A DNA stretch of 64,000 nt from Arenicola marina. Taxonomy: Eukaryota > Annelida > Polychaeta > Arenicolidae. The position numbers and the translations under genes were made by a program. This document shows positions 20,601 to 64,000 of this stretch, piece after piece. Where the stretch lies: positions 35,256,133 through 35,320,132 of the forward strand of contig OZ025263.1 of the NCBI GenBank assembly GCA_964019135.1, written 5' to 3'. The notes beneath the pieces were generated by a model, which saw only the letters and a list, made by a program, of their open reading frames with translations, made no database searches and was not told where the DNA came from. How positions within the stretch are numbered: the stretch's first letter is position 1; each line of letters starts with the position of its first letter.

Positions 20601-23600
20601 CGTTTTCGCGGTAAGGATATTGAAAATATTGTGCACTTATTTTGGAATTGTGTAGAAGTACAGAAGTTCTGGAGCGCTGTGGAAAATTGGTTTAAATATA
20701 AAAAGCTGCAAGTCCGAATCAGTAAATCTCTGATATTCTGTGGGTTCATTGAAGCTACCGATTATGTAAATATCACTCTGGTGACTGCCAAAAGGTTCAT
20801 TCAAAAGAAGAGGGATAAGGGGGAGAAATTAATATTTGAAGGTTTCATCAGGTTTATGAAAGATTATATCAATCTAGATTTCCGCAGACAGATAAATAAA
20901 TATGTAGATCTAAATTGGCTGTTTTGTATGAACTTATCTGAAAGAGATTAATCCTTTGAGGTTGTTGTCTTTTGTATTGTCTTTTGTACTGTTTTTGTAG
21001 CACTTTTTTTTTTCTTGTCCTATTGTTTAGTGATGTTTAAATGATGTATTGTCCTTGTCTTGTGATTGTATTTTGTATATTTCAATGAATCAAAAAAAAA
21101 ATAAAAAAAATGAACCATAATACATAGACTTAGTTGTGTCTGGCTTCCTTCTTCGACTTATGCATAACAGCATCAACAGCATGAATAGCATTGACATGCT
21201 TGGCTTGCAGCCTCCATGCTTTGTTTGTCGATTCAGTCACTTAGATAGATAGCCCAACTTATATCCGATTTACACAAACATTGTACTGGTAATTGACAAT
21301 AACACATACTATTACATCCACGTCTTAGTAGCCAGTCAGATTACACAAGGTGTTGTTTGCTCAGAGATGTAATGTACCAGTATAATGAAGGGACAGTGTA
21401 ATACAGGGACCACTGTAGTAGTATTATAGGGATAAACTTTTTTACCATTATAATGACACATTACGACTGATATCCCTGTAATTACCACATTTTACTTTCA
21501 TTAAGTGGGTCCTACTGTAGCAAGCATTGTCCAGTTCTTTACAGGATGACTATACTGGCTTGTTTCTCAATGTAAACAAAAGAATCCACTTAAGTAATAA
21601 ATAATTCAGGTGTGTTGTATTGAAAAGTGCAGGTCCTATTATAGGATGTAAAAAATCATAAATTTAGCTAACAGAAAGTATGTCAATGTACCCCAATAGA
21701 ATAGTCTCCATTTAACTGTTTTGTCCTTAAGTTTACCTATGTTTTTTGTAGTACTGAAACCAGGTGTGAAAGAATTTGTATATTTCAAAACACTCCTTTT
21801 AAATCCTTTTAAATGATTCTTTCTATTAATTATTATGGCATAACGAATTTTTGTTCTTGTTCAGATCCAGATTGTATGATCTCTTTGGTCAAATTGAGAG
21901 AGAATTTGAAAACATCTATGCAGAAAACTTGGCTTGTAAGTATGTCTATTCTGTCCACCAAAATGGGATTGCAAATTTTTTGGGAAGGATATTGTGTTGT
22001 CCTGGTGTTTTTTCGCCATTCCCCTTCTGCTTTAATTGTGTCATGATTAGCCTCTCTGGTTACATTGCTTTTTATTTTGTTTATAATTGCATCTTGTGAA
22101 TAACTGCACTGTTCATGCCTATGTTCGCCGTTCGTTTTTATTGTATTTCAGTGCAAGAGAAAATCGAAGTGTTAAATGAGAAACTTGAGCAAGCGACTGG
22201 TGGGGAGAAGGTCCCAGGAGACGCCACAGACGATGGCTCTCAGTCCTGGAAACAGGCCAAAAAGTGTAGGTACAGCGCGAGGGTGATGTGGAAAACAGAT
22301 GTATAGTTTAACACGCTATCAGTCAGCTATGTCACACACACAAATAGTGATCCTATGGAAGCAACAGTGAATGCATGAACGTTGCATTTTGTCTAATTTT
22401 GATTTTTTTTTAATCTAGATAATCTATCATTTATTTGCCACCTTCATGTTCTCCTTGGAACAGCTGCTGGAAGTCAAATATCTCAGCGGCTCAAGTTGAC
22501 CTACAAATCTTCTACGAGCAAGATTGTGTCAAGCTTTAAGACCGCGCCGACCGGGTGTCAGCTGGTGCGGGAGTTCCGCGGCCACCGAGACGGAGTCTGG
22601 GAAGTGAGCGTGTCCAAGACAGATCCTCACGTCATAGGAACCGCCTCAGCCGGTGAGATCACCTACCTTGTGTGTTATACACCCCCTCAGTAGACCAGAA
22701 AACTTACCTCATGTTTCCCCCAATGTTGTTCTCGTACTTGACATATCGTGGTGCTAATTGCTGTGTTTTTGTGTTCAGACCACACAGCCCGGGTGTGGTG
22801 GGCGGAGAGCGGGTCCTGTATGCTGTGTTTTTGTGTTCAGACCACACAGCCCGGGTGTGGTGGGCGGAGAGCGGGTCCTGTATGCTGCAGTACGTGGGAC
22901 ACACCGGCTCCGTCAACTCCCTGCGCTTCCACCCTCAGCAGGACCTCGTCGTCACGGCCTCGGGGGACCAGCAGACTCACATCTGGAAGGCCCACGTCAG
23001 CGTGCCGCCCACCCTGGATACCATCGTGAGTCTCCACCCCCACCCACCCTGGATACCATCGTGAGTGCCCCACCCCCACCCTCCCTGGATACCATCGTGA
23101 GTGCCCCACCCCCACCCACCCTGGATACCATCGTGAGTGCCCCACCCCCACCCTCCCTGGATACCATCGTGAGTGCCCCACCCCCACCCACCCTGGATAC
23201 AATCGTGAGTCCCTCACCCCCACCCACCCTGGATACCACCGTGAGTCCCCCACCCCCACCCACCCTGGATACCATCGTGAGTCCCCCACCCCCACCCGCC
23301 CTGGATACCATCGTAAGTGCCCCATCCCCGCCCAACCTGGATACCATCGTGAGTCCACCACCTCCACCCACACTGGATACTATCTTGAGTCCACCCCCCC
23401 CCCCCCCACCCCAACTTGGACTGATAAGCATAGGTCACATTTATCAAGTTTACTGTGATGTAACCCTGTGATATATACCCTTACAGAGGTCACACTGACC
23501 ATGTTTAATGTGATGTAACCCTGTGATATATACCCATACAGAGGTCACATTGATCATGTTTTATGTGATGTAACCCTATGGTATATACCCTCACAGAAGT

Positions 23601-26600
23601 CACATTGACCATGTTTACTTTGATGTAACCTTATGATATATATCCTCACAGAAGTCACATTGACCATGTTTAATGTGATGTAACCCTGTGATATATACCC
23701 TTACAGAGGTCACACTGTACAGAGGTCACATCGATCACGTTTTATGTGATGTAACCCTATGGTATATCCCCTCACAGAAGTCACATTGACCATGTTTAAT
23801 GTGATGTAACCCTGTGATATATACCCTCACAGAGGTCACACTGACCATGTTTAATGTGATGTAACCCTGTGATATATACCCTTACAGAGGTCACATTGAG
23901 CATGTTTTATGTGATGTAACCCTATGGTATATACCCTCACAGAAGTCACATTGACCATGTTTAATTTGATGTTACCCTGTGATATATATCCTCACAGAAG
24001 TCACATTGACCATGTTTAATGTGATGTAACCCTGTGATATATACCCTCACAGAGGTCGCATTTACCATGTTTAATGTGATGTAACCCTGTGATATATACC
24101 CTTACAGAGGTCACATTGATCATGTTTTATGTGATGTAACCCTATGGTATATACCCTTACAGAGGTCACATTGACCATGTGTAATGGGATGTAACCCTAT
24201 GGTATATACCCTCACAGAAGTCACATTGACCATGTTTAATGTGATGTAACCCTGTGATATATACCCTTACAGAGGTCACATTCGTCAGGAGAGGAGGACG
24301 TGGAGGGTTCGGAACGAGAGGACGGCGACGGTAAGTCTGGGTCACGTGTCAGAATTGTCTTTCATTTAAAATGCAGACATCTTCATGTTACCTGAAAAAA
24401 TATTTTATCGGAAGCTTGGATCTCTCCTTATATATTGTCTTAGGTGTCCTAGGGGCATTTATTGTTATTTAAGCTACCAATGATGAGTCATATGTGAGAC
24501 ATCTATACTAACATTACTTGAGCAAAGATGATCCATTTGTGACGCATTTGTCAGAAGGTACAGTTCTCACTTCTTTGGATGGGCTACTTTTCTTGCTTGC
24601 ATGCATAATGCAGTTAATAATATGCCACACTGTGGTAGATAATAATGTAACATTTATTGACCTGCAGCGGGCTAAGGGCCCATAGTACACATTTGTGAAC
24701 GACTTACATATACATATATATAGATATAAGTAGAGGAAACTCATGCCCTCTTCGCGAGTGTTCTAAACTAAGTCTGTATTTTGATGTGCCTTGCTGACTG
24801 TCGCAGGTCTGGACTCGTCTGACGACAAGCACGAGCCGATCTACATCCGGCAGCCCACGATGACCCTGCTGGGCCACTCCGGCGTCGTCATCGCCGCTGA
24901 CTGGCTGTCGGGCGGCAGTCAGGTGATCACGGCGTCCTGGGACCGCACGGCCAACCTGTACGACGCGGAGACCGGCGATATCGTCAACACGCTAACAGGT
25001 ACGCTACAACATGCTCATCTCTGGTTTAAACATATGTTTATTTTGCAATTGGAAATCAGGCAAGGCCTATAACAAATTCCTCTTGCTTCTTTCTGGTCAC
25101 CCCCAGCTGTGTAATGCTGCCTCTTATGTCGTCGCTAAGCGATATACCAAACCGTTTCTTATGAATTATGAAACTGGTGCATTGGTGGTCGTAGTTAATC
25201 GGTGGCTTCTTCACGCTGGGGTCTTACTACTGTGGCAGTTTTTGCACTTTGCATTCTGGTTTAACGTCGATTGTGTTTATTTTGCCCCTCTCCCCGCCCC
25301 TCTCTCCTGAAGGTCATGACCAGGAGCTGACAAACGTGTGCTGCCACACATCTCAACGGTTGGTGGTCACATCCTCCAAGGACGCCACCTTTAGGCTGTG
25401 GGACTTCCGGGACCCCTCCATGAAGGTCAACGTCTTTCAAGGTCACACACAGTAAGTGCGTCTCATCTGTCGTAGGGGGGGGGGGATCCTTGGTATAGAG
25501 GTTACCGCACTAGATTGCAGATCAATAGGTCCTGGGTCTGAATCCGGGCCCATTTCTCATGGTGCATGTTTCATCCACTCACCATTCATCGGCCCAGGAG
25601 GTTATTCGGAGTTGTGATGTTATTTATATTAAATAGGCTGGACCTATACAGCGTACGGGGCTCGGTAAATGATAACGTTCGTTCGACTACACACTACTGC
25701 CTGCTATAGCCTGGGGACCAGAGGAAAGAACTACACACAAATATATGTGAGATATGTGATCGCCTCCAGAATCCAGCCTTATCTCCAATGTGAGTTCCAA
25801 TCTAACGTGATAATGCTAATTCGAAAAGTGAAATCCTGGTCTAAAGAGCTATGTAGGCATCGTGCGCCGTCCGCCACGTGCATGAATCCGTGGGTTTCAG
25901 CAGCCAAAGCCACGATAGAAGATGACGGCCGCATTGATATGCCGGCGTCTCCTGCCTCGGGGGAGCCAGGCGAGCGGCCGGCTCCACACGGCGGGCCAGC
26001 TAGAAGATAGGAGCCGTGATTGGCTGAGTTTAAATGCCCTCTTAGTGATGAATATTCAATACTTCCCTTACACCCCCAATACCGGATTCTGGAACGTTCT
26101 TCAGCGGTGGCGGGGTCCCAGGACCCACGGCACTACACCAGGCACTATGACGACTGCTGTGTTTGTGGTACATGACGACTTGTTTGTCTATTTGTAATCC
26201 CATGGCTACGGCTGTCTACGTGTTTGCTTGCCTTGACGACGTTTGTTTATGCGTTTGCATCACCTTGACGACGATTGTTTATCTATTGCGTGCCCTTGAC
26301 GACGGTTGTATATGTGTTTTGTTTGTGTTTGCGTGCCCTTGACGATGGTTGTATATGTGTTTGTTTGTGTTTGCGTGCCCTCGACGACGGTTGTGTATGT
26401 GTTTGTTTGTGTTTGCAGACCCGTGACGACGGCGGTGTTTGCCGGCGGCGACCATGTTGTGTCCGGAAGTGACGACAGGACGGTCAAGGTGTGGGACCTG
26501 AAGAAACATGCGCTCGCCCATCACGGCCATCCGCACGGACGCGGCAGTCAACAGGTCCGTCTGCCCCCCGCTGTGGCCCCCCGCTGTGGCCCCCCCGCTG

Positions 26601-29600
26601 TGGCCCCCCCGCTGTGGCCCCCCCGCTGTGCCCCCCCCGCTGGCCCCTCCGCTGTGGCCCCCCCGCTGTGGTCCTCCCGCTGTGGCCCCCCCGCTGTGCC
26701 CCCACCCTGTGGCCCCCCCGCTGTGGCCCTCCCGCTGTGGCCTCCCGCTGTGGCCCCCCCGCTGTGGCCCTCCCGCTGTGGCCCTCCCGCTGTGGCCCCC
26801 CCGCTGTGGCCCCCCCGCTGTGGCCCCCCCGCTGTGGCCCCCCCGCGGTGGCCCCCCCGCTGTGCCCCCCCCCCCCCGCTGTGGCCCCCCCGCTGTGGCC
26901 CCCCGCTGTGGCCCTCCCGCTGTGGCCCTCCCGATGTGGCCCCCCCGCTGTGGCCCTCCCGCTGTGGCCCTCCCGCTGTGGCCCCCCCGCTGTGGCCCCC
27001 CCGCTGTGGCCCCCCCGCTGTGCCCCCCCCCGATGTGGCCCCCCCGCTGTGGCCCCCCGCTGTGGCCCCCCCGCTGTGGCCCCCGCTGTGGCCCCCGCTG
27101 TGGCCCCCCCGCTGTGGCCCCCCTGCTGCGCCCCCCCGCTGCGGCCCCCCCGCTGTGGCCCCCCCCCGCTGTGGCCCTCATGCTGTGGCCCCCCGCTGTG
27201 GCCCTCACGCTGTGGCCCTCACGCTGTGGCCCTCACGCTGTGGCCCTCCCGCTGTGGCCCCCCCGCTGTGGCCCCCGCTGTGGCCCTCCCGCTGTGGCCC
27301 CCCCCGCTGTGGCCCCCCCGCTGTGGCCCCCCCGCTGTGGCCCTCACGCTGTGGCCCCCCGCTTTTTTCCTTACGCTGTGGCCCTCCCGCTGTGGCCCTT
27401 ACGCTGTGGCCCTCCCGCTGAGGCCCTCTCGCTGTGGCCCCCCCCGCTGTGGGCCCCCCCCGCTGTGGCCCCCCCGCTGTGGCCCCCCCCGCTGTGGCCC
27501 CCCGCTGTGGCCCCCCCGCTGTGGCCCCCCCGCTGTGGCCCCCCCGCTGTGCCCCCCCCCGCTGTGGCCCCTCCGCTGTGGCCCCCCCGCTGTGCCCCCA
27601 CCCTGTGGCCCCCCCGCTGTGGCCCCCCCGCTGTGGCCCCCCCGCTGTGGCCCCCCGCTGTGGCCCCCGCTGTGGCCCCCCCGCTGTGGCCCCCCCGCTG
27701 TGGCCCCCCCGCTGTGCCCCCCCCCTGTGGCCCCCCCCGCTGTGGCCCCCCCGCTGTGGCCCTCCCGCTGTGGCCCCCCCGCTGTGGCCCTCCCGCTGTG
27801 GCCCTCCCGCTGGTGGCCCTCCCGATGTGGCCCCCCCGCTGTGGCCCTCCCGCTGTGGCCCTCCCGCTGTGGCCCCCCGCTGTGGCCCCCCCCGCTGTGC
27901 CCCCCCCCCCCCCCCGATGTGGCCCCCCCGCTGTGGCCCCCCCGCTGTGGCCCCCCCGCTGTGGCCCCCCCCGCTGTGGCCCCCCCGCTGTGGCCCCCCC
28001 GCTGTGGCCCCCCGCTGTGGCCCCCCCGCTGTGGCCCCCCCGCTGCGGCCCCCCCCGCTGCGGCCCCCCCGCTGTGGCCCCCCCCGCTGTGGCCCTCATG
28101 CTGTGGCCCCCCGCTGTGGCCCTCACGCTGTGGCCCTCACGCTGTGGCCCTCACGCTGTGGCCCTCCCGCTGTGGCCCCCCCCGCTGTGGCCCCCCCGCT
28201 GTGGCCCTCACGCTGTGGCCCCCCGCTTTTTTCCTTACGCTGTGGCCCTCCCGCTGTGGCCCTTACGCTGTGGCCCTCACGCTGTGGCCCCCCGCTTTTT
28301 TCCTTACGCTGTGGCCCTCCCGCTGTGGCCCTTATGCTGTGGCCCTCCCGCTGAGGCCCTCCCGCTGTGGCCCCCCCGCTGTGCCCCCACCCTGTGGCCC
28401 CCCCGCTGTGGCCCTCCCGCTGTGGCCCTCCCGCTGTGGCCCCCCCGCTGTGGGCCCTCCCGCTGTGGCCCTCTCGCTGTGGCCCCCCCCGCTGTGGCCC
28501 CCCCCGCTGTGCCCCCCCCCGCTGTGGCCCCCCCGCTGTGGCCCCCCCGCTGTGCCCCCCCCCCTGTGGCCCCCCCCGCTGTGGCCCCCCGCTGTGGCCC
28601 TCCCGCTGTGGCCCCCCCGCTGTGACCCTCCCGCTGTGGCCCTCCCGCTGTGGCCCTCCCGCTGTGGCCCTCCCGCTGTGGCCCCCACGCTGGCCCCCCC
28701 GCTGTGGCCCCCCGCTGTGGCCCTCACGCTGTGGCCCCCGGCTGTGGCCCCCCCGCTGTGGCCCCCCCGCTGTGGCCCTCATGCTGTGGCCCCCCGCTGT
28801 GGCCCTCACGCTGTGGCCCTCACGCTGTGGCCCTCACGCTGTGGCCCTCCCGCTGTGGCCCCCCCGCTGTGGCCCCCCCGCTGTGCCCCCCCCCGCTGTT
28901 TTCCTTACGCTGTGGCCCTCCCGCTGTGGCCCTTACGCTGTGGCCCGCTCGCTGAGGCCCTCCCGCTGTGGCCCCCCCGCTGTGGCCCTCCCGCTGTGGC
29001 CCTCCCGCTGTGGCCCTCCCGCTGTGGCCCCCACGCTGTGGCCCCCCCGCTGTGGCCCCCCGCTGTGGCCCCCCCCGCTGTGGCCCTCACGCTGTGGGCC
29101 CCGGCTGTGGCCCCCCCGCTGTGGCCCCCCCCGCTGTGGCCCTCATGCTGTGGCCCCCCGCTGTGGCCCTCACGCTGTGGCCCTCACGCTGTGGCCCTCA
29201 CGCTGTGGCCCTCCCGCTGTGGCCCCCCCCGCTGTGCCCCCCCCCCCCCCCCCGCTGTTTTCCTTACGCTGTGGCCCTCCCGCTGTGGCCCTTACGCTGT
29301 GGCCCGCCCGCTGAGGCCCTCCCGCTGTGGCCCTCCCGCTGTGGCCCTCCCGCTGTGGCCCCCCCCGCTGTGGCCCCCCCCCGCTGCGGCCCCCCCCCCG
29401 CTGCGGCCCCCCCCGCTGTGGCCCTCATGCTGTGGCCCCCCGCTGTGGCCCTCACGCTGTGGCCCTCACGCTGTGGCCCTCCCGCTGTGGCCCCCACGCT
29501 GTGGCCCTCCCGCTGTGACCCTCCCGCTGTGGCCCTCACGCTGTGACCCTCCCGCTGTGGCCCCCACGCTGTGATCCTCCCGCTGTGGCCCTCCCGCTGT

Positions 29601-30204
29601 GCCCCCCCCGCTGTGGCCCCCCCGCTGTGGCCCTCCCGCTGTGGCTCTCACAGCGTAGCAGGCTGTTTGGCTGGGTGGTGGCCCGCAACCTGTAACTAAA
29701 TTTTCTGAAATAAATAAATGTAGTGAATATCAAGTAAATAACAGAAAAGTCCAATGTGGGATACAAGTATATTGAAGACTAGTAGTCGCTAGCATGAAGA
29801 AATCTTTGTCATGGGCAATACATGAAGCAATATCAAATATCAATAGGAAAGTAAGTAAAATGTGGGATAGAAGTACAATAGGCATTGAAGACTGCTAGTC
29901 GCTGGCAATATTCGCTATCCTGGGAGCAGTGCAGTCTGTGTTGTAAGTGAGACGGGTGGACTGTTGCAGGCTGTCGGTGTCAGCGCACCAGAACCTGATC
30001 GCCATCCCGCAGGACAACCGCCACATCCGGCTGTCTGACATGGGCGGCCTGCGCATGGGGCGTCTCTCCAAGAGCAGCCGCCAGGGCCACAGCCGCATGG
30101 TCTGCGGCACCGTCTGGAACGACCGCGACAACGCCGAGTGCAACCTCTTCTCCTGCGGCTTCGATCGCCACGTGTTCGGCTGGAGCATCCACGTCCAGCA
30201 GTGA
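17522..30204 (+). CDS. WDR37: WD repeat-containing protein 37, complete, ten coding exons
   Basis: WDR37 is a WD40 beta-propeller protein; in vertebrates I recall it partnering PACS proteins. Coding exons are 17522-17652, 21865-21935, 22152-22265, 22464-22652, 22841-23025, 24273-24330, 24807-24998, 25313-25451, 26419-26554 and 29970-30204. All splice phases agree except for one extra base in exon 9; allowing for it gives 482 residues plus stop (human about 494). A coiled-coil segment (exons 2-3: [16 protein letters not shown], then [15 protein letters not shown]) precedes [14 protein letters not shown], and the WD repeats follow, with [51 protein letters not shown] and [14 protein letters not shown]. 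The C-terminus reads [16 protein letters not shown] then TGA. Introns 4, 5, 8 and 9 and the 3' end carry arrays that copy or abut gene borders. Confidence 0.95.
17824..17839 (+). repeat. left target-site duplication of the LINE
   Basis: aaaaatgaaccataat at 17824-17839 is repeated exactly at 21106-21121 after the A-rich tail. This is the hallmark of target-primed reverse transcription and fixes the element ends. Confidence 0.88.
17828..20951 (+). pseudogene. LINE ORF2 remnant (endonuclease and reverse transcriptase), frameshifted
   Basis: Open segments are 17828-19393, 19377-19934, 19931-20185, 20189-20614 and 20631-20951 (segment starts are nominal; the first reads from flanking DNA). The first break is an A-run: six A's occur where AVDFEKAFD would need five, at about 19380-19386. 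An in-frame stop ends a segment at 20183-20185. The endonuclease core reads RGDFN where a Gly usually precedes GDFN. Described as a broken copy only. Confidence 0.88.
17840..21105 (+). mobile_element. 5'-truncated L1/Tx1-type LINE retrotransposon in WDR37 intron 1
   Basis: About 3.27 kb, sense to WDR37, flanked by a 16-bp target-site duplication and ending in an A-rich tail (21091-21110). It encodes the C-terminal part of an apurinic-type endonuclease ([16 protein letters not shown] near 17995, HSDHSAISI near 18255), then a reverse transcriptase ([49 protein letters not shown] at 19674), and a zf-RVT-like tail ([13 protein letters not shown] near 20637). The frame is broken near 19380 and again near 19935, 20183 and 20612, so this copy is dead. 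ORF1 and the endonuclease N-terminus are missing. Clade is judged from motif style only. Confidence 0.92.
21106..21121 (+). repeat. right target-site duplication of the LINE
   Basis: Exact second copy of the 16-mer found at 17824-17839, directly after the A-rich tail. Confidence 0.88.
21122..21864 (+). other. rest of WDR37 intron 1
   Basis: AT-rich intronic sequence ending in acceptor ttttgttcttgttcag. No gene, RNA or repeat is recognised. Confidence 0.6.
21865..21935 (+). CDS. WDR37: WDR37 coding exon 2
   Basis: 71 nt encoding [20 protein letters not shown], then NLA. The motif [13 protein letters not shown] is near-identical to vertebrate WDR37. Donor GTAAGT after one base of the next codon. 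Confidence 0.95.
22152..22265 (+). CDS. WDR37: WDR37 coding exon 3
   Basis: 114 nt encoding [18 protein letters not shown] and on to WKQAKK. Of two possible donors (T|GTAGGT and AG|GTACAG) only T|GTAGGT fits the exon 4 phase, giving [13 protein letters not shown] across the junction. Confidence 0.88.
22464..22652 (+). CDS. WDR37: WDR37 coding exon 4
   Basis: 189 nt; acceptor ctccttggaacag, donor GTGAGA. It encodes [18 protein letters not shown] and continues with [20 protein letters not shown] to GTASA, the opening of the first WD repeat. Confidence 0.93.
22759..22882 (+). repeat. 62-bp tandem duplication of the intron 4 acceptor and exon 5 start
   Basis: 22759-22820 and 22821-22882 are essentially identical: each has tgctgtgtttttgtgttcag followed by ACCACACAGCCCGGGTGTGG and on to cctgta (copy 1 differs at its first bases). 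Two equal acceptors result, at 22779 and 22841. Because 62 is not a multiple of 3, only the second keeps the WDR37 frame. Confidence 0.93.
22841..23025 (+). CDS. WDR37: WDR37 coding exon 5
   Basis: 185 nt from the second of two duplicated acceptors to the first of ten repeated donors (GTGAGT at 23026). It encodes [20 protein letters not shown], then [20 protein letters not shown] and [15 protein letters not shown]. Phase 0 at its end fits exon 6 exactly. Confidence 0.9.
23026..23400 (+). repeat. 36-bp minisatellite repeating the exon 5 end and its splice donor
   Basis: The unit comprises gtgagtgccccaccccc, then accctccctggataccatc. Intact donors (GTGAGT, once GTAAGT) sit at 23026, 23061, 23097, 23133, 23169, 23205, 23241, 23277, 23313 and 23349, with a decayed TTGAGT at 23385. 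The first spacing is 35 bp and all later ones 36. The exonic part of each unit repeats the exon 5 ending LDTI. Confidence 0.95.
23432..24272 (+). repeat. 55-bp minisatellite repeating the intron 5 acceptor and exon 6 start
   Basis: About fifteen 55-bp units: agg/aagtcacattgaccatg ... gtgatgtaaccctgtg ... atatatacccttacag. Each ends in a 3' splice site followed by AGGTCAC, the first bases of exon 6. One extra 16-bp unit near 23715-23733 (aggtcacactgtacag) accounts for the only spacing irregularity. Only the copy at 24273 continues into coding sequence. Confidence 0.95.
24273..24330 (+). CDS. WDR37: WDR37 coding exon 6 (acidic linker)
   Basis: 58 nt encoding [19 protein letters not shown] plus one base, donor GTAAGT. 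It corresponds to the SGEDE-type acidic linker of vertebrate WDR37. Its first seven bases are also the start of every upstream 55-bp unit. Confidence 0.9.
24807..24998 (+). CDS. WDR37: WDR37 coding exon 7
   Basis: 192 nt, acceptor tgactgtcgcag, donor GTACGC. It encodes [16 protein letters not shown], then [20 protein letters not shown] and [20 protein letters not shown], ending LTG: one full WD repeat. Confidence 0.95.
25313..25451 (+). CDS. WDR37: WDR37 coding exon 8
   Basis: 139 nt, acceptor ctctctcctgaag, donor GTAAGT. It encodes [20 protein letters not shown], then [20 protein letters not shown], ending FQGHT: a WD repeat nearly identical to vertebrate WDR37. Confidence 0.95.
25492..25565 (+). 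repeat. tRNA-like sequence, possible SINE head
   Basis: ttggtatagaggttaccgc resembles an A box and gggtctgaatcc a B box, with an anticodon-arm-like segment between (loop ttgcaga). It lacks a convincing acceptor stem, so it is more likely a tRNA-derived SINE relic than a working tRNA gene. Confidence 0.35.
26205..26418 (+). repeat. 42-bp minisatellite upstream of and resembling the exon 9 acceptor
   Basis: About five imperfect units of cttgacgacggttgtatatg + tgtttgtttgtgtttgcgtgcc. The real acceptor is gtttgtgtttgcag followed by ACCCGTGACGACGGCGGTGT, so each unit resembles acceptor plus exon 9 start. In the upstream copies the AG is replaced (gcgt or gcat). Confidence 0.88.
26419..26554 (+). 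CDS. WDR37: WDR37 coding exon 9 with a one-base frameshift
   Basis: It encodes [20 protein letters not shown], then TVKVWDLK, and after a frame change [16 protein letters not shown]. The exon is 136 nt where 135 fits both phase and family: AAGAAACATG at 26501-26510 has one A more than the expected AAG AAC ATG. Donor GTCCGT at 26555 is weak but yields R|LSVSAHQ with exon 10. An assembly indel in an A run and a genuine frameshift allele are both possible; conservation beyond the shift favours the former. Confidence 0.9.
26565..29650 (+). repeat. 13-14-bp C-rich minisatellite filling most of intron 9
   Basis: About 3.1 kb of gctgtggcccccc and gctgtggccctcc variants, starting some 15 bp after the exon 9 donor. 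Marker segments with gcttttttccttacgctgtg recur at about 27363, 28227 and 28296, and shortened forms at about 28896 and 29257, showing higher-order copying. Long open frames on both strands (the longest about 1,000 codons) are artefacts of the stop-free unit. Confidence 0.95.
29651..29969 (+). other. remaining unique part of WDR37 intron 9
   Basis: About 320 bp of AT-rich sequence ending in acceptor gtggactgttgcag. A loose repeat of agtaaataacag/agtaagtaaaatgtggga type is visible; nothing else. Confidence 0.6.
29970..30204 (+). CDS. WDR37: WDR37 terminal coding exon 10
   Basis: 235 nt ending in TGA at 30202-30204. It encodes [20 protein letters not shown], then [20 protein letters not shown] and [20 protein letters not shown]. 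The last 27 nt including the stop belong to the array that follows. Confidence 0.95.
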
Positions 30205-32145: not shown

Positions 32146-32211
32146 ACTGGATGGATGGAGAAAACGCTTCAACCTCTAAATTCAACCCAGATGGACGCTG
32201 TTTGGAGTCTG

Positions 32212-34805: not shown

Positions 34806-34814
34806 CTTCTGCCG

Positions 34815-52300: not shown

Positions 52301-52765
52301 TGTTACAGATACAGTCACATCACACCGACAGGCATGGCTGTTACAGATACAGCCACATCACACCGACAGGCATGGCTGTTACAGATACAGCCACATCACA
52401 CGGACAGACATGGCTGTTACAGATACAGCCACATCACACCGACAGGCATAGCTGTCACAGATACAGCCACATCACACCGACAGACATGGCTGTTACAGAT
52501 ACAGCCACATCACACCGACAGGCATAGCTGTTACAGATACAGCCACATCACACCGACAGGCATGGCTGTTACAGATACAGTCACATCACACCGACAGGCA
52601 TGGCTGTTACAGATACAGCCACATCACACCGACAGGCATGGCTGTTACAGATACAGCCACATCACACGGACAGACATGGCTGTTACAGATACAGCCACAT
52701 CACACCGACAGACATAGCTGTTACAGATACAGCCACATCACACCGACAGGCATAGCTGTTACAGA
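37395..52765. repeat. 38-bp satellite array, about 400 copies, 15 kb
   Basis: The unit is catggctgttacagatacag + ccacatcacaccgacagg. Copies up to about 37480 are degenerate (gatatgcatagctgttaga). Common variants are catagctg, cataccgac, cacacggac, cagacatgg and gatgcagcc. Marker variants show a duplication of about 2 kb: the series at 37945-39340 recurs at 40522-41880. The unit has no stop unless catagctg occurs in frame, which explains many overlapping open frames of 90-580 codons; none is a gene. It lies between convergent WDR37 and SLC49A4. Confidence 0.97.
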
Positions 52766-52832
52766 GATGTAACGTTAATACGTCACACCGTGTTTTAAAC
52801 AAGTATTTTAATTACGTGTGACGTCGCCAGAC

Positions 52833-52898
52833 TGTATGACGTCACGGCAGCGGCCAACACTATCACCACACGATGTGTATGACGTCACGGCAGCGGCC
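52833..52898. repeat. 43-bp-offset duplication around the SLC49A4 stop codon
   Basis: tgtatgacgtcacggcagcg + gcc occurs at 52833 and again at 52876. The second copy contains the SLC49A4 stop (52885-52887, minus strand); the first is its 3'UTR copy. Confidence 0.88.
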
Positions 52899-53012
52899 GG
52901 TAATCCCCAGTGTCTATATCCAGGCGACTGTAGCGCTCTCTGTAGGCAATGAAGAAGGGGACGCAGGCGACCGTGCAGCCAAACATGGTCCAGTTCATCC
53001 AGCTCAGGTCCT
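52885..53012 (-). CDS. SLC49A4: SLC49A4 terminal exon (last membrane helix and tail)
   Basis: 128 nt; acceptor gggctttcag, stop TGA at 52887-52885. It encodes the final transmembrane helix (WTMFGCTVACVPFFIAY) and a short charged cytosolic tail. Confidence 0.88.
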
Positions 53013-54874
53013 CTGAAAGCCCAGGAGACCACGTGATGCAACAACGCCACAGTCATGGCAACATACACGTCATCAACGCAGTATTGTTTATTAAAGCTTG
53101 AAGACGTAACGTTGTTCATACAGCAATTCCACCTCAGTTCAGATTTTTCACATCTTTTCGGATGAACGCCGTGGACACATTGTCTGACTGTGAATGTTAA
53201 CTGCATGACAGATGTGTTATTATAATATATGTTAAACTGTAAAAAAACGGCAGCAATGTCCGAACTTTCATGACGTAGTACACAAGAAAGCCACACTTTT
53301 CCACACGAGATTTGACCAAACAGTGCCTAAACAATATGCCATTTTGTATATTGACCAAACAGTGCCTAAACAATATGCCATGTTGTATATTGACCAAACA
53401 GTGACTAAACAATATGCCATGTTGTATATTGACCAAACAGTGCCTAAACAATATGCCATGTTGTATATTGACCAGTGCCTAAACAATATACCATGTTGTA
53501 TATTGACCAAACAGTGCCTAAACAATATGCCATGTTGTATATTGACCAAACAGTGCCTAAACAATGCCATGTTGTATATTGACCAAACAGTGCCTAAACA
53601 ATATGCCATGTTGTATATTGACCAAACAGTGCCTAAACAATATGCCATGTTGTATATTGACCAAACAGTGCCTAAACAATATGCCATGTTGTATATTGAC
53701 CAAACAGTGCCTAAACAATATGCCATGTTGTATATTGGCCAAACAGTGCCTAAACAATATGCCATGTTGTATATTGTACAGTGCCTAAACAATATGCAAT
53801 GTTGTATATTGACCAAACAGTGCCTAAACAATATGCCATGTTGTATATTTACCAAACAGTGCCTAAACAATATGCCATGTTGTATATTGACCAAACAGTG
53901 CCTAAACAATATGCCATGTTGTATATTGACCAAACAGTGCCTAAACAATATGCCATGTTGTATATTGTACAGTGCCTAAACAATATGCCATGTTGTGTAT
54001 TGACCAAACAGTGCCTAAACAATATGCCAGGTTGTATATTGCATACCATGAAGGTTTGTCGGTAAAATGTTGCTGTATGAGTGACAATCATCTTTAAAGA
54101 TATAACATTCATCGTTTTCAACTTGACGTGCTTCTTTCTTGGTTGTTGTTATATGACTAATATTCGATTACGCAGGCCTTAATCGAATTCAGTGAAGTCG
54201 GTGACTCACCATTAGGGGCCAGGAGTGCGTGAATCACCAAGCGTGGGTGACTCACCAGGCGTGGGTGACTCACCAGGCGTGGGTGACTCACCAGGCGTGG
54301 GTGACTCACCAGGCGTAGGTGACTCACCAGGCGTGGGTGACTTACCAGGCGTGGGTGACTCACCAGGCGTGGGTGACTCACCAGGCGTGGGGGACTCACC
54401 AGGAGTGGGTGACTTACCAGGCGTGGGTGACTCACCAGGCGTGGGTGACTCACCAGGCGTGGGGGACTCACCAGGAGTGGGTGACTCACCAGGCGCGGGG
54501 GACTCACCAGGCGTGGGTGACTCACCAGGCGTGAGTCGTGGGTGACTCACCAGGCGTGGGTGACTCACCCGGCGTGGGTGACTCACCAGGCGTGGGTGAC
54601 TCACAAGGCGTGGGTGACTCACCAGGCGTGGGTGACTCACCAAGCGTGGGTGACTCACCAGGCGTGGGTGACTCACCAGGCGTGGGTGACTCACCTATCG
54701 GGGCATACAGGACAAGCAGGAAGACGAGGCCGGCCAGGTTGTTGAGCCAGGTCATGAGGCCGTTGGTGAGGCCCTCGGCGATGGGGTAGGTCGCCTCGCA
54801 GACCAGTTCAAAGAGCAGCGGCACGGCGCCCACCACACACACACTGCCCACCACCATCGTGGCGTACAGCCCGC
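52885..54874 (-). CDS. SLC49A4: SLC49A4 (DIRC2)-type MFS transporter, last two exons
   Basis: C-terminal part of a 12-helix major facilitator of the SLC49 family; vertebrate SLC49A4 is lysosomal. Exons on the minus strand are 54874-54695 and 53012-52885. The first encodes GLYATMVVGSVCVVGAVPLL, then FELVCEATYPIAEGLTNGLM and a hydrophobic helix ending LLVLYAPI. The ELxxExxYPxxEG signature is typical of the family. The last exon encodes EDLSWMNWTMFGCTVACVPF, then FIAYRERYSRLDIDTGDYRP and LP-stop, matching the family ELSWFNW and RESYxRLxLD pattern as I remember it. Phases join exactly (G|AG gives Glu). The gene continues to the right, beyond the window. FLVCR-type SLC49 members are the alternative. 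Confidence 0.87.
53013..53314 (-). other. unique part of the last SLC49A4 intron
   Basis: About 300 bp of AT-rich sequence between the terminal exon and the 39-bp intronic array; nothing recognised. Confidence 0.6.
53315..54048. repeat. 39-bp minisatellite in the last SLC49A4 intron
   Basis: About nineteen copies of accaaacagtgcctaaacaa + tatgccatgttgtatattg. A few shortened units (gaccagtgcc, gtacagtgcc, caatgccatg) break the register. It does not touch an exon border. Confidence 0.95.
54232..54694 (-). repeat. 18-bp minisatellite repeating the SLC49A4 splice donor in frame
   Basis: On the minus strand the unit is gtgagtcacccacgcctg, and the first copy is the donor of the penultimate exon (GTGAGT at 54694). 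About 25 copies follow, nearly all with intact GTGAGT (a few GTAAGT). 18 bp is six codons (GESPTP) with no stop. Confidence 0.95.
54695..54874 (-). CDS. SLC49A4: SLC49A4 penultimate exon
   Basis: 180 nt; acceptor ccgtggtgttacag, donor GTGAGT. It encodes two hydrophobic segments separated by the FELVCEATYPIAEG loop. It begins with two bases that complete a codon, so the upstream exon must end in phase 1. Confidence 0.9.
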
Positions 54875-54964: not shown

Positions 54965-55340
54965 ACAGGGTGATCAGACAGACCTTCAGACATCAGTGGC
55001 GCCCTGTATGTCAGACAGACCTTCAGACATCAATGGCGCCCGGTATGTCAGACAGACCTTCAGACATCAGTGGCGCCCGGTATGTCAGACAGACCTTCAG
55101 ACATCAGTGGCGCCCGGTATGTCAGAGAGACCTTCAGACATCAGTGGAGCCCGGTACGGCAGACAGACCATCAGACATCAGTGGCGCCCGGTATGTCAGA
55201 CAGACCATCAGACATAAGTGGCGCCCTGTATGGCAGACAGACCATCAGATATCAGTGGCGCCCGGTATGTCAGAGAGACCATCAGACATCAGTGGCGCCC
55301 GGTATGTCAGACAGACCATCAGACATCAGTGGCGCCCTGT
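54965..55340. repeat. 37-bp minisatellite, sister type of the 39-bp array
   Basis: About ten copies of gtcagacagaccttcagaca + tcagtggcgcccggtat. It shares tcagtggcgccc and gtatgtc with the neighbouring 39-bp unit but has cagacagaccttcagaca in place of ttacctacgctgagaggta. Some copies have gagagacc or gaccatc. Confidence 0.93.
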
Positions 55341-58300
55341 ATGTCTTACCTACACTGAGAGGTATCAGTGGCGCCCTGTGTATGTCTTACCTACGCTGAG
55401 AGGTATCAGTGGCGCCCTGTATGTCTTACCTACGCTGAGAGGTATCAGTGGCGCCCTTTATGTCTTACCTACGCTGAGAGGTATCAGTGGCGCCCTGTAT
55501 GTCTTACCTACGCTGAGAGGTATCAGTGGCGCCCTGTATGTCTTACCTACGCTGAGAGGTATCAGTGGCGCCCTGTATGTCTTACCTACGATGAGAGGTA
55601 TCAGTGGCGCCCTGTATGTCTTACCTACGCTGAGAGGTATCAGTGGCGCCCTGTATGTCTTACCTACGCTGAGAGGTATCAGTGGCGCCCTGTATGTCTT
55701 ACCTACGATGAGAGGTATCAGTGGCGCCCTGTATGTCTTACCTACGCTGAGAGGTATCAGTGGCGCCCTGTATGTCTTACCTACGCTGAGAGGTATCAGT
55801 GGCGCCCTGTATGTCTTACCTACGATGAGAGGTATCAGTGGCGCCCTGTATGTCTTACCTACGCTGAGAGGTATCAGTGGCGCCCTGTATGTCTTACCTA
55901 CGCTGAGAGGTATCAGTGGCGCCTTGTATGTCTTACCTACGCTGAGAGGTATCAGCGGCGCCCTGTATGTCTTACCTACGCTGAGAGGTATCAGTGGCGC
56001 CCTGTATGTCTTACCTACGCTGAGAGGTATCAGTGGCGCCTTGTATGTCTTACCTACGCTGAGAGGTATCAGTGGCGCCCTGTATGTCTTACCTACGCTG
56101 AGAGGTACCAGTGGCGCCCTGTATGTCTTACCTACGCTGAGAGGTATCAGTGGCGCCCTGTATGTCTTACCTACGCTGAGAGGTATCAGTGGCGGTCTGT
56201 ATGTCTTACCTACGCTGAGAGGTATCAGTGGCGCCCTGTATGTCTTACCTACACTGAGAGGTATCAGTGGCGCCCTGTGTATGTCTTACCTACGCTGAGA
56301 GGTATCAGTGGCGCTCTGTATGTCTTACCTACGCTGAGAGGTATCAGTGGCGCCCTGTATGTCTTACCTACGATGAGAGGTATCAGTGGCGCCCTGTATG
56401 TCTTACCTACGCTGAGAGGTATCAGTGGCGCCCTGTATGTCTTACCTACGCTGAGAGGTATCAGTGGCGGTCTGTACGTCTTACCTACGCTGAGAGGTAT
56501 CAGTGGCGCCCTGTATGTCTTACCTACGATGAGAGGTATCAGTGGCGCCCTGTATGTCTTACCTACGCTGAGAGGTATCAGTGGCGCCCTGTATGTCTTA
56601 CCTACGATGAGAGGTATCAGTGGCGCCCTGTATGTCTTACCTACGCTGAGAGGTATCAGTGGCGCCCTGTATGTCTTACCTACGCTGAGAGGTATCAGTG
56701 GCGCCCTGTATGTCTTACCTACGATGAGAGGTATCAGTGGCGCCCTGTATGTCTTACCTACGCTGAGAGGTATCAGTGGCGCCCTGTATGTCTTACCTAC
56801 GCTGAGAGGTATCAGTGGCGCCCTGTATGTCTTACCTACGCTGAGAGGTATCAGTGGCGCCCTGTATGTCTTACCTACGCTGAGAGGTATCAGTGGCGCC
56901 CTGTATGTCTTACCTACGCTGAGAGGTATCAGTGGCGGTCTGTATGTCTTACCTACGCAGAGAGGTATCAGTGGCGCCCTGTATGTCTTACCTACACTGA
57001 GAGGTATCAGTGGCGCCCTGTGTATGTCTTACCTACGCTGAGAGGTATCAGTGGCGCTCTGTATGTCTTACCTACGCTGAGAGGTATCAGTGGCGCCCTG
57101 TATGTCTTACCTACGCTGAGAGGTATCAGTGGCGCTCTGTATGTCTTACCTACGCTGAGAGGTATCAGTGGCGCCCTGTATGTCTTACCTACGCTGAGAG
57201 GTATCAGTGGCGCTCTGTATGTCTTACCTACGCTGAGAGGTATCAGTGGCGCCCTGTATGTCTTACCTACGCTGAGAGGTATCAGTGGCGCCCTGTATGT
57301 CTTACCTACGCTGAGAGGTATCAGTGGCGCCCTGTATGTCTTACCTACGATGAGAGGTATCAGTGGCGCCCTGTATGTCTTACCTACGCTGAGAGGTATC
57401 AGTGGCGCCCTGTATGTCTTACCTACGATGAGAGGTATCAGTGGCGCCCTGTATGTCTTACCTACGCTGAGAGGTATCAGTGGCGCCCTGTATGTCTTAC
57501 CTACGCTGAGAGGTATCAGTGGCGCCCTGTATGTCTTACCTACGATGAGAGGTATCAGTGGCGCCCTGTATGTCTTACCTACGCTGAGAGGTATCAGTGG
57601 CGCCCTGTATGTCTTACCTACGCGGAGAGGTATCAGTGGCGCCCTGTATGTCTTACCTACGCTGAGAGGTATCAGTGGCGGTCTGTATGTCTTACCTACG
57701 CTGAGAGGTATCAGTGGCGCCCTGTATGTCTTACCTACACTGAGAGGTATCAGTGGCGCCCTGTGTATGTCTTACCTACGCTGAGAGGTATCAGTGGCGC
57801 TCTGTATGTCTTACCTACGCTGAGAGGTATCAGTGGCGCCCTGTATGTCTTACCTACGATAAGAGGTATCAGTGGCGCCCTGTATGTCTTACCTACGCTG
57901 AGAGGTATCAGTGGCGCCCTGTATGTCTTACCTACGCTGAGAGGTATCAGTGGCGCCCTGTATGTCTTACCTACGCTGAGAGGTATCAGTGGCGCCCTGT
58001 ATGTCTTACCTACGCTGAGAGGTATCAGTGGCGCCCTGTATGTCTTACCTACGCTGAGAGGTATCAGTGGCGCCCTGTATGTCTTACCTACGCTGAGAGG
58101 TATCAGTGGCGGTCTGTATGTCTTACCTACGCTGAGAGGTATCAGTGGCGCCCTGTATGTCTTACCTACGATGAGAGGTATCAGTGGCGCCCTGTATGTC
58201 TTACCTACGCTGAGAGGTATCAGTGGCGCCCTGTATGTCTTACCTACGATGAGAGGTATCAGTGGCGCCCTGTATGTCTTACCTACGCTGAGAGGTATCA

Positions 58301-61300
58301 GTGGCGCCCTGTATGTCTTACCTACGCTGAGAGGTATCAGTGGCGCCCTGTATGTCTTACCTACGCTGAGAGGTATCAGTGGCGCCCTGTATGTCTTACC
58401 TACGCTGAGAGGTATCAGTGGCGCCCTGTATGTCTTACCTACGCTGAGAGGTATCAGTGGCGCCCCGTATGTCTTACCTACACTGAGAGGTATCAGTGGC
58501 GCCCTGTATGTCTTACCTACGCTGAGAGGTATCAGTGGCGCCCTGTATGTCTTACCTACGCTGAGAGGTATCAGTGGCGCCCTGTATGTCTTACCTACGA
58601 TGAGAGGTATCAGTGGCGCCCTGTATGTCTTACCTACGCTGAGAGGTATCAGTGGCGCCCTGTATGTCTTACCTACGCTGAGAGGTATCAGTGGCGCCCT
58701 GTATGTCTTACCTACGCTGAGAGGTATCAGTGGCGCCCTGTATGTCTTACCTACGCTGAGAGGTATCAGTGGCGCTCTGTATGTCTTACCTACGCTGAGA
58801 GGTATCAGTGGCGCCCTGTATGTCTTACCTACGCTGAGAGGTATCAGTGGCGCCCTGTATGTCTTACCTACGCTGAGAGGTATCAGTGGCGCCTTGTATG
58901 TCTTACCTACGCTGAGAGGTATCAGTGGCGCCCTGTATGTCTTACCTACGCTGAGAGGTATCAGTGGCGCCCTGTATGTCTTACCTACGCTGAGAGGTAT
59001 CAGTGGCGCCCTGTATGTCTTACCTACGCTGAGAGGTATCAGTGGCGCCCTGTATGTCTTACCTACGCTGAGAGGTATCAGTGGCGCCCTGTATGTCTTA
59101 CCTACGCTGAGAGGTATCAGTGGCGCCCTGTATGTCTTACCTACGCTGAGAGGTATCAGTGGCGCCCTGTATGTCTTACCTACGTTGAGAGGTATCAGTG
59201 GCGCCCTTTATGTCTTACCTACACTGAGAGGTATCAGTGGCGCCCTGTATGTCTTACCTACGCTGAGAGGTATCAGTGGCGCCCTGTATGTCTTACCTAC
59301 GCTGAGAGGTATCAGTGGCGCCCTGTATGTCTTACCTACGATGAGAGGTATCAGTGGCGCCCTGTATGTCTTACCTACACTGAGAGGTATCAGTGGCGCC
59401 CTGTATGTCTTACCTACGCTGAGAGGTATCAGTGGCGCCCTGTATGTCTTACCTACGCTGAGAGGTATCAGTGGCGCCCTGTATGTCTTACCTACGATGA
59501 GAGGTATCAGTGGCGCCCTGTATGTCTTACCTACGCTGAGAGGTATCAGTGGCGCCCTGTATGTCTTACCTACGCTGAGAGGTATCAGTGGCGCCCTGTA
59601 TGTCTTACCTACGTTGAGAGGTTTCAGTGGCGCCCTGTATGTCTTACCTACACTGAGAGGTATCAGTGGCGCCCTGTATGTCTTACCTACGCTGAGAGGT
59701 ATCAGTGGCGCCCTGTATGTCTTACCTACGCTGAGAGGTATCAGTGGCGCCCTGTATGTCTTACCTACGCTGAGAGGTATCAGTGGCGCCCTGTATGTCT
59801 TACCTACGCTGAGAGGTATCAGTGGCGCCCTGTATGTCTTACCTACGCTGAGAGGTATCAGTGGCGCCCTGTATGTCTTACCTACGCTGAGAGGTATCAG
59901 TGGGGCCCTGTATGTCTTACCTACGCTGAGAGGTATCAGTGGCGCCCTGTATGTCTTACCTACGCTGAGAGGTATCAGTGGCGCCCTGTGTATGTCTTAC
60001 CTACGCTGAGAGGTATCAGTGGCGCCCTGTATGTCTTACCTACGCTGAGAGGTATCAGTGGCGCCCTGTATGTCTTACCTACGCTGAGAGGTATCAGTGG
60101 CGCCCTGTATGTCTTACCTACGCTGAGAGGTATCAGTGGCGCCCTGTATGTCTTACCTACGATGAGAGGTATCAGTGGCGCCCTGTATGTCTTACCTACG
60201 CTGAGAGGTATCAGTGGCGCCCTGTATGTCTTACCTACGCTGAGAGGTATCAGTGGCGCCCTGTATGTCTTACCTACGTTGAGAGGTATCAGTGGCGCCC
60301 TGTATGTCTTACCTACGTTGAGAGGTATCAGTGGCGCCCTTTATGTCTTACCTACACTGAGAGGTATCAGTGGCGCTCTGTATGTCTTACCTACGCTGAG
60401 AGGTATCAGTGGCGCCCTGTATGTCTTACCTACGCTGAGAGGTATCAGTGGCGCCCTGTATGTCTTACCTACGCTGAGAGGTATCAGTGGCGCTCTGTAT
60501 GTCTTACCTACGCTGAGAGATATCAGTGGCGCCTTGTATGTCTTACCTACGCTGAGAGGTATCAGTGGCGCCCTGTATGTCTTACCTACGCTGAGAGGTA
60601 TCAGTGGCGCCCTGTATGTCTTACCTACGCTGAGAGGTATCAGTGGCGCCCTGTATGTCTTACCTACGATGAGAGGTATCAGTGGCGCCCTGTATGTCTT
60701 ACCTACGCTGAGAGGTATCAGTGGCGCCCTGTATGTCTTACCTACGCTGAGAGGTATCAGTGGCGCCCTGTATGTCTTACCTACACTGAGAGGTATCAGT
60801 GGCGCCCTGTGTATGTCTTACCTACGCTGAGAGGTATCAGTGGCGCTCTGTATGTCTTACCTACGCTGAGAGGTATCAGTGGCGCCCTGTATGTCTTACC
60901 TACGCTGAGAGGTATCAGTGGCGCTCTGTATGTCTTACCTACGCTGAGAGGTATCAGTGGCGCCCTGTATGTCTTACCTACGCTGAGAGGTATCAGTAAA
61001 GGCCTGTATGTCTTACCTACGATGAGAGGTATCAGTGGCGCCCTGTATGTCTTACCTACACTGAGAGGTATCAGTGGCGCTCTGTATGTCTTACCTACGC
61101 TGAGAGGTATCAGTGGCGCCCTGTATGTCTTACCTACGCTGAGAGGTATCAGTGGCGCCCTGTATGTCTTACCTACGCTGAGAGGTATCAGTGGCGCCCT
61201 GTATGTCTTACCTACGATGAGAGGTATCAGTGGCGCCCTGTATGTCTTACCTACGCTGAGAGGTATCAGTGGCGCCCTGTATGTCTTACCTACGCTGAGA

Positions 61301-64000
61301 GGTATCAGTAAAGGCCTGTATGTCTTACCTACGCTGAGAGGTATCAGTGGCGCCCTGTGTATGTCTTACCTACGCTGAGAGGTATCAGTGGCGCCCTGTA
61401 TGTCTTACCTACGCTGAGAGGTATCAGTGGCGCCCTGTATGTCTTACCTACGATGAGAGGTATCAGTGGCGCCCTGTATGTCTTACCTACGCTGAGAGGT
61501 ATCAGTAAAGGCCTGTATGTCTTACCTACGCTGAGAGGTATCAGTGGCGCCCTGTGTATGTCTTACCTACGCTGAGAGGTATCAGTGGCGCCCTGTATGT
61601 CTTACCTACGCTGAGAGGTATCAGTGGCGCCCTGTATGTCTTACCTACGCTGAGAGGTATCAGTAAAGGCCTGTATGTCTTACCTACACTGAGAGGTATC
61701 AGTGGCGCCCTGTGTATGTCTTACCTACGCTGAGAGGTATCAGTGGCGCTCTGTATGTCTTACCTACGCTGAGAGGTATCAGTGGCGCCCTGTATGTCTT
61801 ACCTACGCTGAGAGGTATCAGTGGAGCCCTGTATGTCTTACCTACGATGAGAGGTATCAGTGGCGCCCTGTATGTCTTACCTACGCTGAGAGGTATCAGT
61901 GGCGCCCTGTATGTCTTACCTACGCTGAGAGGTATCAGTGGCGCCCTGTATGTCTTACCTACGATGAGAGGTATCAGTGGCGCCCTGTATGTCTTACCTA
62001 CGCTGAGAGGTATCAGTGGCGCCCTGTATGTCTTACCTACGCTGAGAGGTATCAGTAAAGGCCTGTATGTCTTACCTACGATGAGAGGTATCAGTGGCGC
62101 CCTGTATGTCTTACCTACACTGAGAGGTATCAGTGGCGCCCTGTGTATGTCTTACCTACGCTGAGAGGTATCAGTGGCGCTCTGTATGTCTTACCTACGC
62201 TGAGAGGTATCAGTGGCGCCCTGTATGTCTTACCTACGCTGAGAGGTATCAGTGGCGCCCTGTATGTCTTACCTACGCTGAGAGGTATCAGTAAAGGCCT
62301 GTATGTCTTACCTACGATGAGAGGTATCAGTGGCGCCCTGTATGTCTTACCTACACTGAGAGGTATCAGTGGCGCCCTGTGTATGTCTTACCTACGCTGA
62401 GAGGTATCAGTGGCGCTCTGTATGTCTTACCTACGCTGAGAGGTATCAGTGGCGCCCTGTATGTCTTACCTACGCTGAGAGGTATCAGTGGCGCCCTGTA
62501 TGTCTTACCTACGCTGAGAGGTATCAGTGGCGCCCTGTATGTCTTACCTACGCTGAGAGGTATCAGTGGCGCCCTGTATGTCTTACCTACACTGAGAGGT
62601 ATCAGTGGCGCCCTGTATGTCTTACCTACGCTGAGAGGTATCAGTGGCGCTCTGTATGTCTTACCTACGCTGAGAGGTATCAGTGGCGCCCTGTATGTCT
62701 TACCTACGCTGAGAGGTATCAGTGGCGCCCTGTATGTCTTACCTACGCTGAGAGGTATCAGTGGCGCCCTGTATGTCTTACCTACGCTGAGAGGTATCAG
62801 TGGCGCCTTGTATGTCTTACCTACGCTGAGAGGTATCAGTGGCGCCCTGTATGTCTTACCTACGCTGAGAGGTATCAGTGGCGCCCTGTATATCTTACCT
62901 ACGCTGAGAGGTATCAGTGGCGCCCTGTATGTCTTACCTACGCTGAGAGGTATCAGTGGCGCCCTGTATGTCTTACCTACGCTGAGAGGTATCAGTGGCG
63001 CCCTGTATGTCTTACCTACGCTGAGAGGTATCAGTGGCGCCCTGTATGTCTTACCTACGCTGAGAGGTATCAGTGGCGCCCTGTATGTCTTACCTACGCT
63101 GAGAGGTACCAGTGGCGCCCTGTATGTCTTACCTACGCTGAGAGGTATCAGTAAAGGCCTGTATGTCTTACCTACGCTGAGAGGTACCAGTGGCGCTCTG
63201 TATGTCTTACCTACGCTGAGAGGTATCAGTGGCGCCCTGTATGTCTTACCTACGCTGAGAGGTATCAGTGGCGCCCTGTATGTCTTACCTACGCTGAGAG
63301 GTATCAGTAAAGGCCTGTATGTCTTACCTACGCTGAGAGGTACCAGTGGCGCTATGTACGTCTTACCTACGCTGAGAGGTATCAGTGGCGCCCTGTATGT
63401 CTTACCTACGCTGAGAGGTATCAGTGGCGCCCTGTATGTCTTACCTACGCTGAGAGGTATCAGTGGCGCCTTGTATGTCTTACCTACGCGGAGAGGTATC
63501 AGTGGCGCCCTGTATGTCTTACCTACGCTGAGAGGTATCAGTGGCGCCCTGTATGTCTTACCTACGCTGAGAGGTATCAGTGGCGCCCTGTATGTCTTAC
63601 CTACGCTGAGAGGTATCAGTGGCGCCCTGTATGTCTTACCTACGCTGAGAGGTATCAGTGGCGCCCTGTATGTCTTACCTACGCTGAGAGGTATCAGTGG
63701 CGCCCTGTATGTCTTACCTACGTTGAGAGGTATCAGTGGCGCCCTGTATGTCTTACCTACGCTGAGAGGTATCAGTGGCGCCCTGTATGTCTTACCTACG
63801 CTGAGAGGTATCAGTGGCGCCCTGTATGTCTTACCTACGCTGAGAGGTATCAGTGGCGCTCTGTATGTCTTACCTACGCTGAGAGGTATCAGTGGCGCCC
63901 TGTATGTCTTACCTACGCGGAGAGGTATCAGTGGCGCCCTGTATGTCTTACCTACGCTGAGAGGTATCAGTGGCGCCCTGTATGTCTTACCTACGCTGAG
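55341..64000. repeat. 39-bp minisatellite, about 220 copies, running off the window
   Basis: The plus-strand unit is cgccctgtatgtcttaccta + cgctgagaggtatcagtgg. On the minus strand each unit ends ...ctctcagcgtag then gtaagaca, a good 5' splice site preceded by codons APLIPLSVG in phase 1. Variants: gatgagagg, gcgctctg, cgccttg, a 41-bp form with ccctgtgtatg, and agtaaaggcctg only right of about 60990. Because 39 is divisible by 3 the plus strand is open for up to 1,025 codons (CLTYAERYQWRPV or VLPTLRGISGALY); this is not a gene. Confidence 0.97.

Follow-up and report, generated by a model that had tools for sequence, protein, structure and literature searches.

Why do so many minisatellites in one stretch of DNA contain a copy of the gene border that they adjoin? 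The stretch analysed here, 64 kb in length and referred to as the window, holds three genes that were recognized by translation and comparison with homologues: INO80D (minus strand), WDR37 (plus strand) and SLC49A4 (minus strand). The original prediction listed eight arrays or duplications that include a splice site or stop codon of the neighbouring gene, five in WDR37 and three in SLC49A4. All eight hold up, with varying strength, the weakest being a decayed array of 42-bp units. A ninth candidate, an array of 109-bp units in INO80D, is borne out by the flanking genome, where the real exon was found, and three genes are thus affected. We consider it the probable explanation that these border arrays are tandem duplications in a minisatellite-rich genome which are tolerated since the copy on the exon side still works.

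Copied borders in three genes

Splice sites in our gene models were set by the reading frame and the homologous protein, and the resulting intron numbering agrees with that of the original prediction. In WDR37, the acceptor of exon 5 (intron 4) lies in a duplication of a 62-bp unit present twice (22759..22887, plus strand), of which the real border is one copy. The real exon starts at 22841 and the copy becomes exon-like at 22779; the two agree over about 20 bases of intron and 47 of exon. At the other end of the same exon, the donor of intron 5 is the first copy in an array of 36-bp units (23008..23411, plus strand). Its 9-mer ATC-GTGAGT (a hyphen marks the border in this and later motifs) occurs exactly eight times with the real donor counted in, which leaves seven identical decoys. 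These lie at offsets of 35, 71 and onward, so that use of a decoy would shift the frame. The acceptor of exon 6, which closes intron 5, is the last copy in an array of 55-bp units (23432..24282, plus strand) with 16 CAG-A(A/G)GTC sites including the real one; 37 bases are common to the real site and two decoy acceptors. Together, the 36-bp and 55-bp arrays make up nearly all of intron 5. The array at the exon-9 acceptor (intron 8; 42-bp unit; 26231..26432, plus strand) is the decayed one: its best copy retains 19 of 24 border bases, and five displayed copies lack the AG. Beyond exon 9, an array of 14-bp units (26564..29645, plus strand) starts 10 bp past the donor and holds no copy of it. At the end of the gene, the stop codon and the end of the last exon are copied in an array with a 35/48-bp unit (30178..32147, plus strand). 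An 18-base stop context occurs there 15 times exactly, the real stop included and standing first.

Of SLC49A4, only two coding exons lie inside the window, the penultimate at 54695..54874 and the last at 52885..53012 (both minus strand). Its stop is contained in a duplication of 23 bp at 43-bp spacing (52832..52897, minus strand). The penultimate donor is where an array of 18-bp units begins (54219..54695, minus strand); 24 GGTGAGT/GGTAAGT sites place a donor in almost every unit. The nearest copy has one exon base in common with the border and a farther one six, and the first decoy units keep the reading frame. The largest array of the gene, with a 39-bp unit (55325..64000 within the window, minus strand), belongs to the antepenultimate donor. 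It carries 222 GGTAAG donors in 222.5 unit lengths, and in most units LIPLSV-G stands in correct phase before the donor, followed by GTAAG. When the consensus peptide was compared with three SLC49A4 homologues, its score was reached by none of 3938 GT sites and by 0.05% of shuffles; this test was run twice, a first register that was one residue off having given no signal. The assignment as a border array was settled by the flanking genome, where the real SLC49A4 exon, ending EYIKVIPLSV-G, stands at the far end of the array. The array extends to window coordinate 67013 with 73 further donor sites in the flank, and according to Tandem Repeats Finder (TRF) it comprises about 299 units in total, the adjoining 37-bp array included. 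The latter (54974..55324, minus strand) has about half of its unit in common with the 39-bp array, a likeness which suggests that one of the two apparently switched its unit by partial replacement.

Two more SLC49A4 donors with an array at the border were found in the flank. An array of 65-bp units carries an exact copy (24/24) of one donor, with 39 exon bases, and an array of 20-bp units begins at the donor preceding it (17/24; one to two exon bases). This brings the gene to four such donors, between two of which lies one unplaced exon. The borders tested in SLC49A4 are to be read with the extent of the model in mind: at least one further exon at 67.1–68.0 kb has borders outside the tested set, and the protein stretch between the exons at 80.0 and 71.3 kb is excluded.

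In INO80D, the array of 109-bp units occupies positions 1..6032 of the window (minus strand) and belongs to the exon-8 acceptor, the exon numbers being our own. Each unit comprises 39 exon bases, the remainder being intron: an AG is followed by in-phase ENYQRNLEASKPK, which fits the DNYxxxxxExKPK of homologues, and then by an exit from coding sequence. The real exon, ENYQRNLEASKPKKPRKKTKPSALTR, stands in the flanking genome at the far end of the array, which runs about 10.3 kb past the window edge and comprises about 149 units in all (TRF). The same gene has three tandem arrays inside coding exon 3 (9812..11097, minus strand) with units of 18/36, 33/36 and 60 bp; every unit length is a multiple of three and the frame is open.

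Border copying compared with chance

The amount of border copying was assessed with 24 bases across each junction (splice sites, starts and stops), for which a copy matching at least 18 of 24 positions was sought within 250 bp. Seven of the 36 borders in the window were copied by this measure, the remaining 29 reaching at most 15. The seven are the WDR37 exon-5 acceptor and stop (24 each), exon-6 acceptor (22), exon-5 donor (20) and exon-9 acceptor (19), and the SLC49A4 stop (21) and penultimate donor (18). Among 4000 control positions, 1.05% reached the threshold; these omit arrays, so the comparison makes the border result look better than warranted. In a fairer null, arrays enter as single units that are given random positions within the window. 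With this null, a border was contained in six of 23 judgeable arrays as against a mean of 1.14 expected (p 0.0006), or 1.40 expected (p 0.0016) when placements wholly within coding sequence were left out; p ranged from 0.00005 to 0.003 in further subsets of these data. In the placement nulls and the first border test, WDR37 exons 1 and 2 had borders set 1–2 bp off; with these corrected, the border test again gives seven of 36. The INO80D start was 4 bp off in the window null and the first border test, and it was unused in the null for the extended genes.

Fifteen borders in the flanks comprise three at 18 or more, two of them predicted, one at 17 and eleven at 15 or less (INO80D exon 9 having less certain borders than the earlier exons), which brings the total to 10 of 51. 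Across the three extended gene bodies, in which arrays take up 67.7 of 86.8 kb, a border is present in 10 of the 25 arrays that lie outside coding interiors, as against 2.94 expected (p 0.00015); among arrays lying wholly in the flanks the figure is two of 12. When the coding rate is corrected for frame, six border arrays stand against 2.4 expected (P 0.035). Array sequence reduced to one unit has a share of about 4% here. The claim that unrelated arrays of differing unit length contain borders more often than random placement gives is sustained, both in the window and in the extended genes.

Mere chance, seen with hindsight in a repeat-rich window, is a reading to which we give very little credence. 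It could appeal to the share of the window that arrays occupy (68%), to a finding that was chosen for its look, and to the absence of copied borders in the control gene VCP. Against it stand the placement nulls just described, for the window and for the extended genes alike, and two predictions made from the window that were borne out in flanks not seen before.

VCP, which lies on another contig and was covered in part, is the sole control gene. None of its 24 borders is copied (20 plus two in one stretch, two in another), and hence the density of border copies is not uniform and their rate varies by gene. A further VCP donor, positioned with no downstream exon to guide it, is likewise uncopied; an array of 39-bp units (719-1300 of its stretch, reverse complement) begins 12 bp after this likely donor. 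The load of arrays beyond the window was sampled in 14 stretches of 10 kb, taken at one fixed coordinate on 14 different contigs. Arrays of at least 100 bp with a period of at least 7 account for 32.7% of these 140 kb; two stretches are all array and two are array-free.

Origin of the border arrays

Within each border array the real border lies at the exon-side end, and growth points away from the exon: the real donor comes first, the real acceptor last and the WDR37 stop first. The exon sequence in the border copies is that of the homologous proteins, which indicates that copying went from the exon to the array. We propose that minisatellites would be born and expanded at a high rate in this genome, starting from short tandem duplications that may arise via slippage or microhomology, mostly where G+C exceeds the non-coding background. 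Duplications within an exon would persist only when the frame is kept, as is the case for the repeats in INO80D exon 3. Duplications that span an edge could persist because the edge adjoining the exon works, while surplus copies drop into the intron or the 3' untranslated region. Survivors would then grow through slippage and unequal exchange to tens or hundreds of units, most of them with a decoy donor, acceptor or stop. The splicing machinery would have to pick the exon-side site, that is, the first donor copy or the last acceptor copy. For normal mRNAs to arise, the exon-side copy would have to prevail, presumably by exon definition.

Some features of the sequence fit individual steps. The 62-bp unit in WDR37 is flanked at both ends by TGCTG, as might be expected of slippage or microhomology. 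G+C is above 0.45 in 20 of the 25 arrays of the window, compared with 0.39 in non-coding DNA outside arrays and 0.60 in coding sequence. In the intergenic 38-bp array described below, an exact block of 1252 bp is repeated 2577 bp away, and such large exact blocks point to growth by unequal exchange or a similar process.

Several points weigh against this explanation. Correct splicing is an assumption here. The TGCTG repeat is a single, anecdotal case of microhomology, and the link with G+C is weak, the 55-bp border array having a value of 0.38. Arrays that contain no border exist in the same genes (8113-9119, 53312-54041 and others), and VCP has no copied border at all. Moreover, the excess of border arrays exceeds what uniform placement provides, and the correction for frame brings it down only as far as P 0.035.

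That residual excess is what a border-specific process would account for, in which tandem duplication is initiated at exon edges, for example by DNA damage linked to transcription or splicing, or by a step in base composition that causes replication to slip. We regard such a process as a serious but unlikely candidate. Border-holding arrays are three- to fivefold in excess, four SLC49A4 donors have border arrays, and even arrays that copy nothing begin within 12 bp past a donor (WDR37 exon 9, VCP). On the other hand, stop codons are copied just as splice sites are, which a selection filter fits better than a process linked to splicing; VCP stands at 0/24, and the excess is modest once the coding rate is frame-corrected. 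A different course would be encroachment, whereby arrays begin anywhere in an intron and spread until selection halts them at the splice site. The SLC49A4 18-bp and 20-bp arrays and the WDR37 14-bp array would fit such spreading, since they start directly at a donor or no more than 10 bp from one and, in the closest copies tested, have at most two exon bases; so would intron 5 of WDR37, filled almost entirely by two arrays. Yet eight of 11 border copies carry 10–47 exon bases, more than encroachment can supply, and as a general account it seems to us rather improbable.

The original prediction had left open whether repeat expansion is initiated at exon edges or tolerated only there. Selective tolerance fits as well as initiation does, because the INO80D coding arrays have unit lengths that are multiples of three, because stops, which do not splice, are copied too, and because the excess falls to six observed against 2.4 expected (P 0.035) under the frame correction. 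Border-specific initiation acting on top of a selection filter is conceivable on these data but conjectural.

Selection that preserves the decoy splice sites themselves was also considered. In five arrays the splice-site columns are no more variable than the remaining columns. Donor columns are less variable than others, but comparably long invariant stretches are present elsewhere in the units, and the alignment of the 109-bp units slips at indels, so that no such selection is deduced here.

Host, gene context and known relatives

The host had been taken for an amphioxus, an assignment that our data contradict. Among the best 120 of 1377 matches, the top named ones for WDR37 are Paralvinella (70% identity), Capitella (70%) and Ridgeia (67%), as compared with 57–59% for Branchiostoma. 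In a tree of 30 rows, the query falls in a set of 13 members (support 98/95) together with Paralvinella, Capitella, Ridgeia, Helobdella and eight other proteins; Owenia lies outside this set, and the pairing of the query with Capitella is weak (90/75). Forcing WDR37 to group with amphioxus costs 77 log units (approximately unbiased test, p-AU 6e-14), and grouping it with five molluscs was rejected as well (p-AU 2e-57). A scan of viral contigs turned up no relative of WDR37. Judged from the WDR37 grouping with annelids and from INO80D, whose best match is Capitella, the locus is that of an annelid. In Capitella, WDR37 and INO80D are both assigned to a contig of 246257 bases, which suggests, short of proof, that they adjoin each other in that animal as well.

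WDR37 (17522..30204, plus strand, introns included) has ten coding exons, located at 17522-17652, 21865-21935, 22152-22265, 22464-22652, 22841-23025, 24273-24330, 24807-24998, 25313-25451, 26419-26554 and 29970-30204. Near position 26503 in exon 9, the frame switches at an A run relative to homologues, through either an indel of the assembly or a genuine variant. Intron 1 contains the remnant of a LINE-like element (17825-20951, plus strand) with endonuclease-reverse transcriptase and RVT_1 domains spread over several frames. Coding exons 2–7 of INO80D span 6169..12507 (minus strand, introns included), and two stretches of the protein match zf-C3Hc3H. The ends of WDR37 and SLC49A4 are convergent, and the gap between them is mostly an array of 38-bp units (37400-52765; 15.3 kb, about 400 units). 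Overall, 50 TRF rows were merged to 25 non-redundant arrays that cover 67.7% of the window.

The 'mirage' minisatellites of amphioxus, which the original prediction had mentioned, are the correct precedent (PMC3087553). They occur in Adh3, the globins BflGb6 and BflGb9, PGBD5 and other genes, have units from 10 to about 160 bp, and keep AG or GT in many copies (PMC3087553, PMC3902484); normal mRNAs are reported to be made despite their presence (PMC3087553). The annelid arrays resemble them in that units cross intron-exon boundaries at donors and acceptors alike, and in that splice signals are kept in many copies, with the exception of the 42-bp array. They differ from the mirages, as far as these are described there, in the annelid host, in the copied stop codons, in the number of borders per gene and in size (up to about 299 units versus 6 and 3 in BflGb6; PMC3087553, PMC3902484). 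For the mirages, splicing data and instability are reported, whereas the annelid arrays are known from one assembled sequence.

Other systems show partial likeness. In genes of primate segmental duplications, certain minisatellites, whose unit averages about 30 bp, lie at exon-intron boundaries as here, but the minisatellites there have about four repeats on average, occur in recent paralogs and are accompanied by novel introns and alternative transcripts (PMC2812944). In Cryptococcus, splice signals are likewise copied as repeats expand, but the outcome is the gain of whole introns, a step beyond what the arrays described here show (PMC2395259). Large minisatellites in annelid introns are found in earthworm metallothionein genes, the account of which makes no mention of exon-border copies in the portion available (PMC12783039). 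In the open-licence literature, judged by title and the start of the abstract, no border-copying minisatellite of an annelid was found. What is new are thus the annelid host group, the copied stops, the size of the arrays and their number per gene.

These findings carry a phenomenon of amphioxus into another phylum, in which stop codons are copied too and arrays reach about 299 units. The cell has to choose one real edge among up to hundreds of look-alikes, and exon definition is naturally put to the test by a pre-mRNA in which more than 100 acceptors are nearly identical, or in which donors number in the hundreds. Border arrays also provide material for testing conversion into new introns and call for caution in gene-prediction pipelines. 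That minisatellites are born preferentially at exon edges from lancelets to annelids, by way of a process linked to gene structure, appears doubtful to us at present. If it were true, border arrays would be general and recurrent, and they would steadily supply new introns and alternative splice sites.

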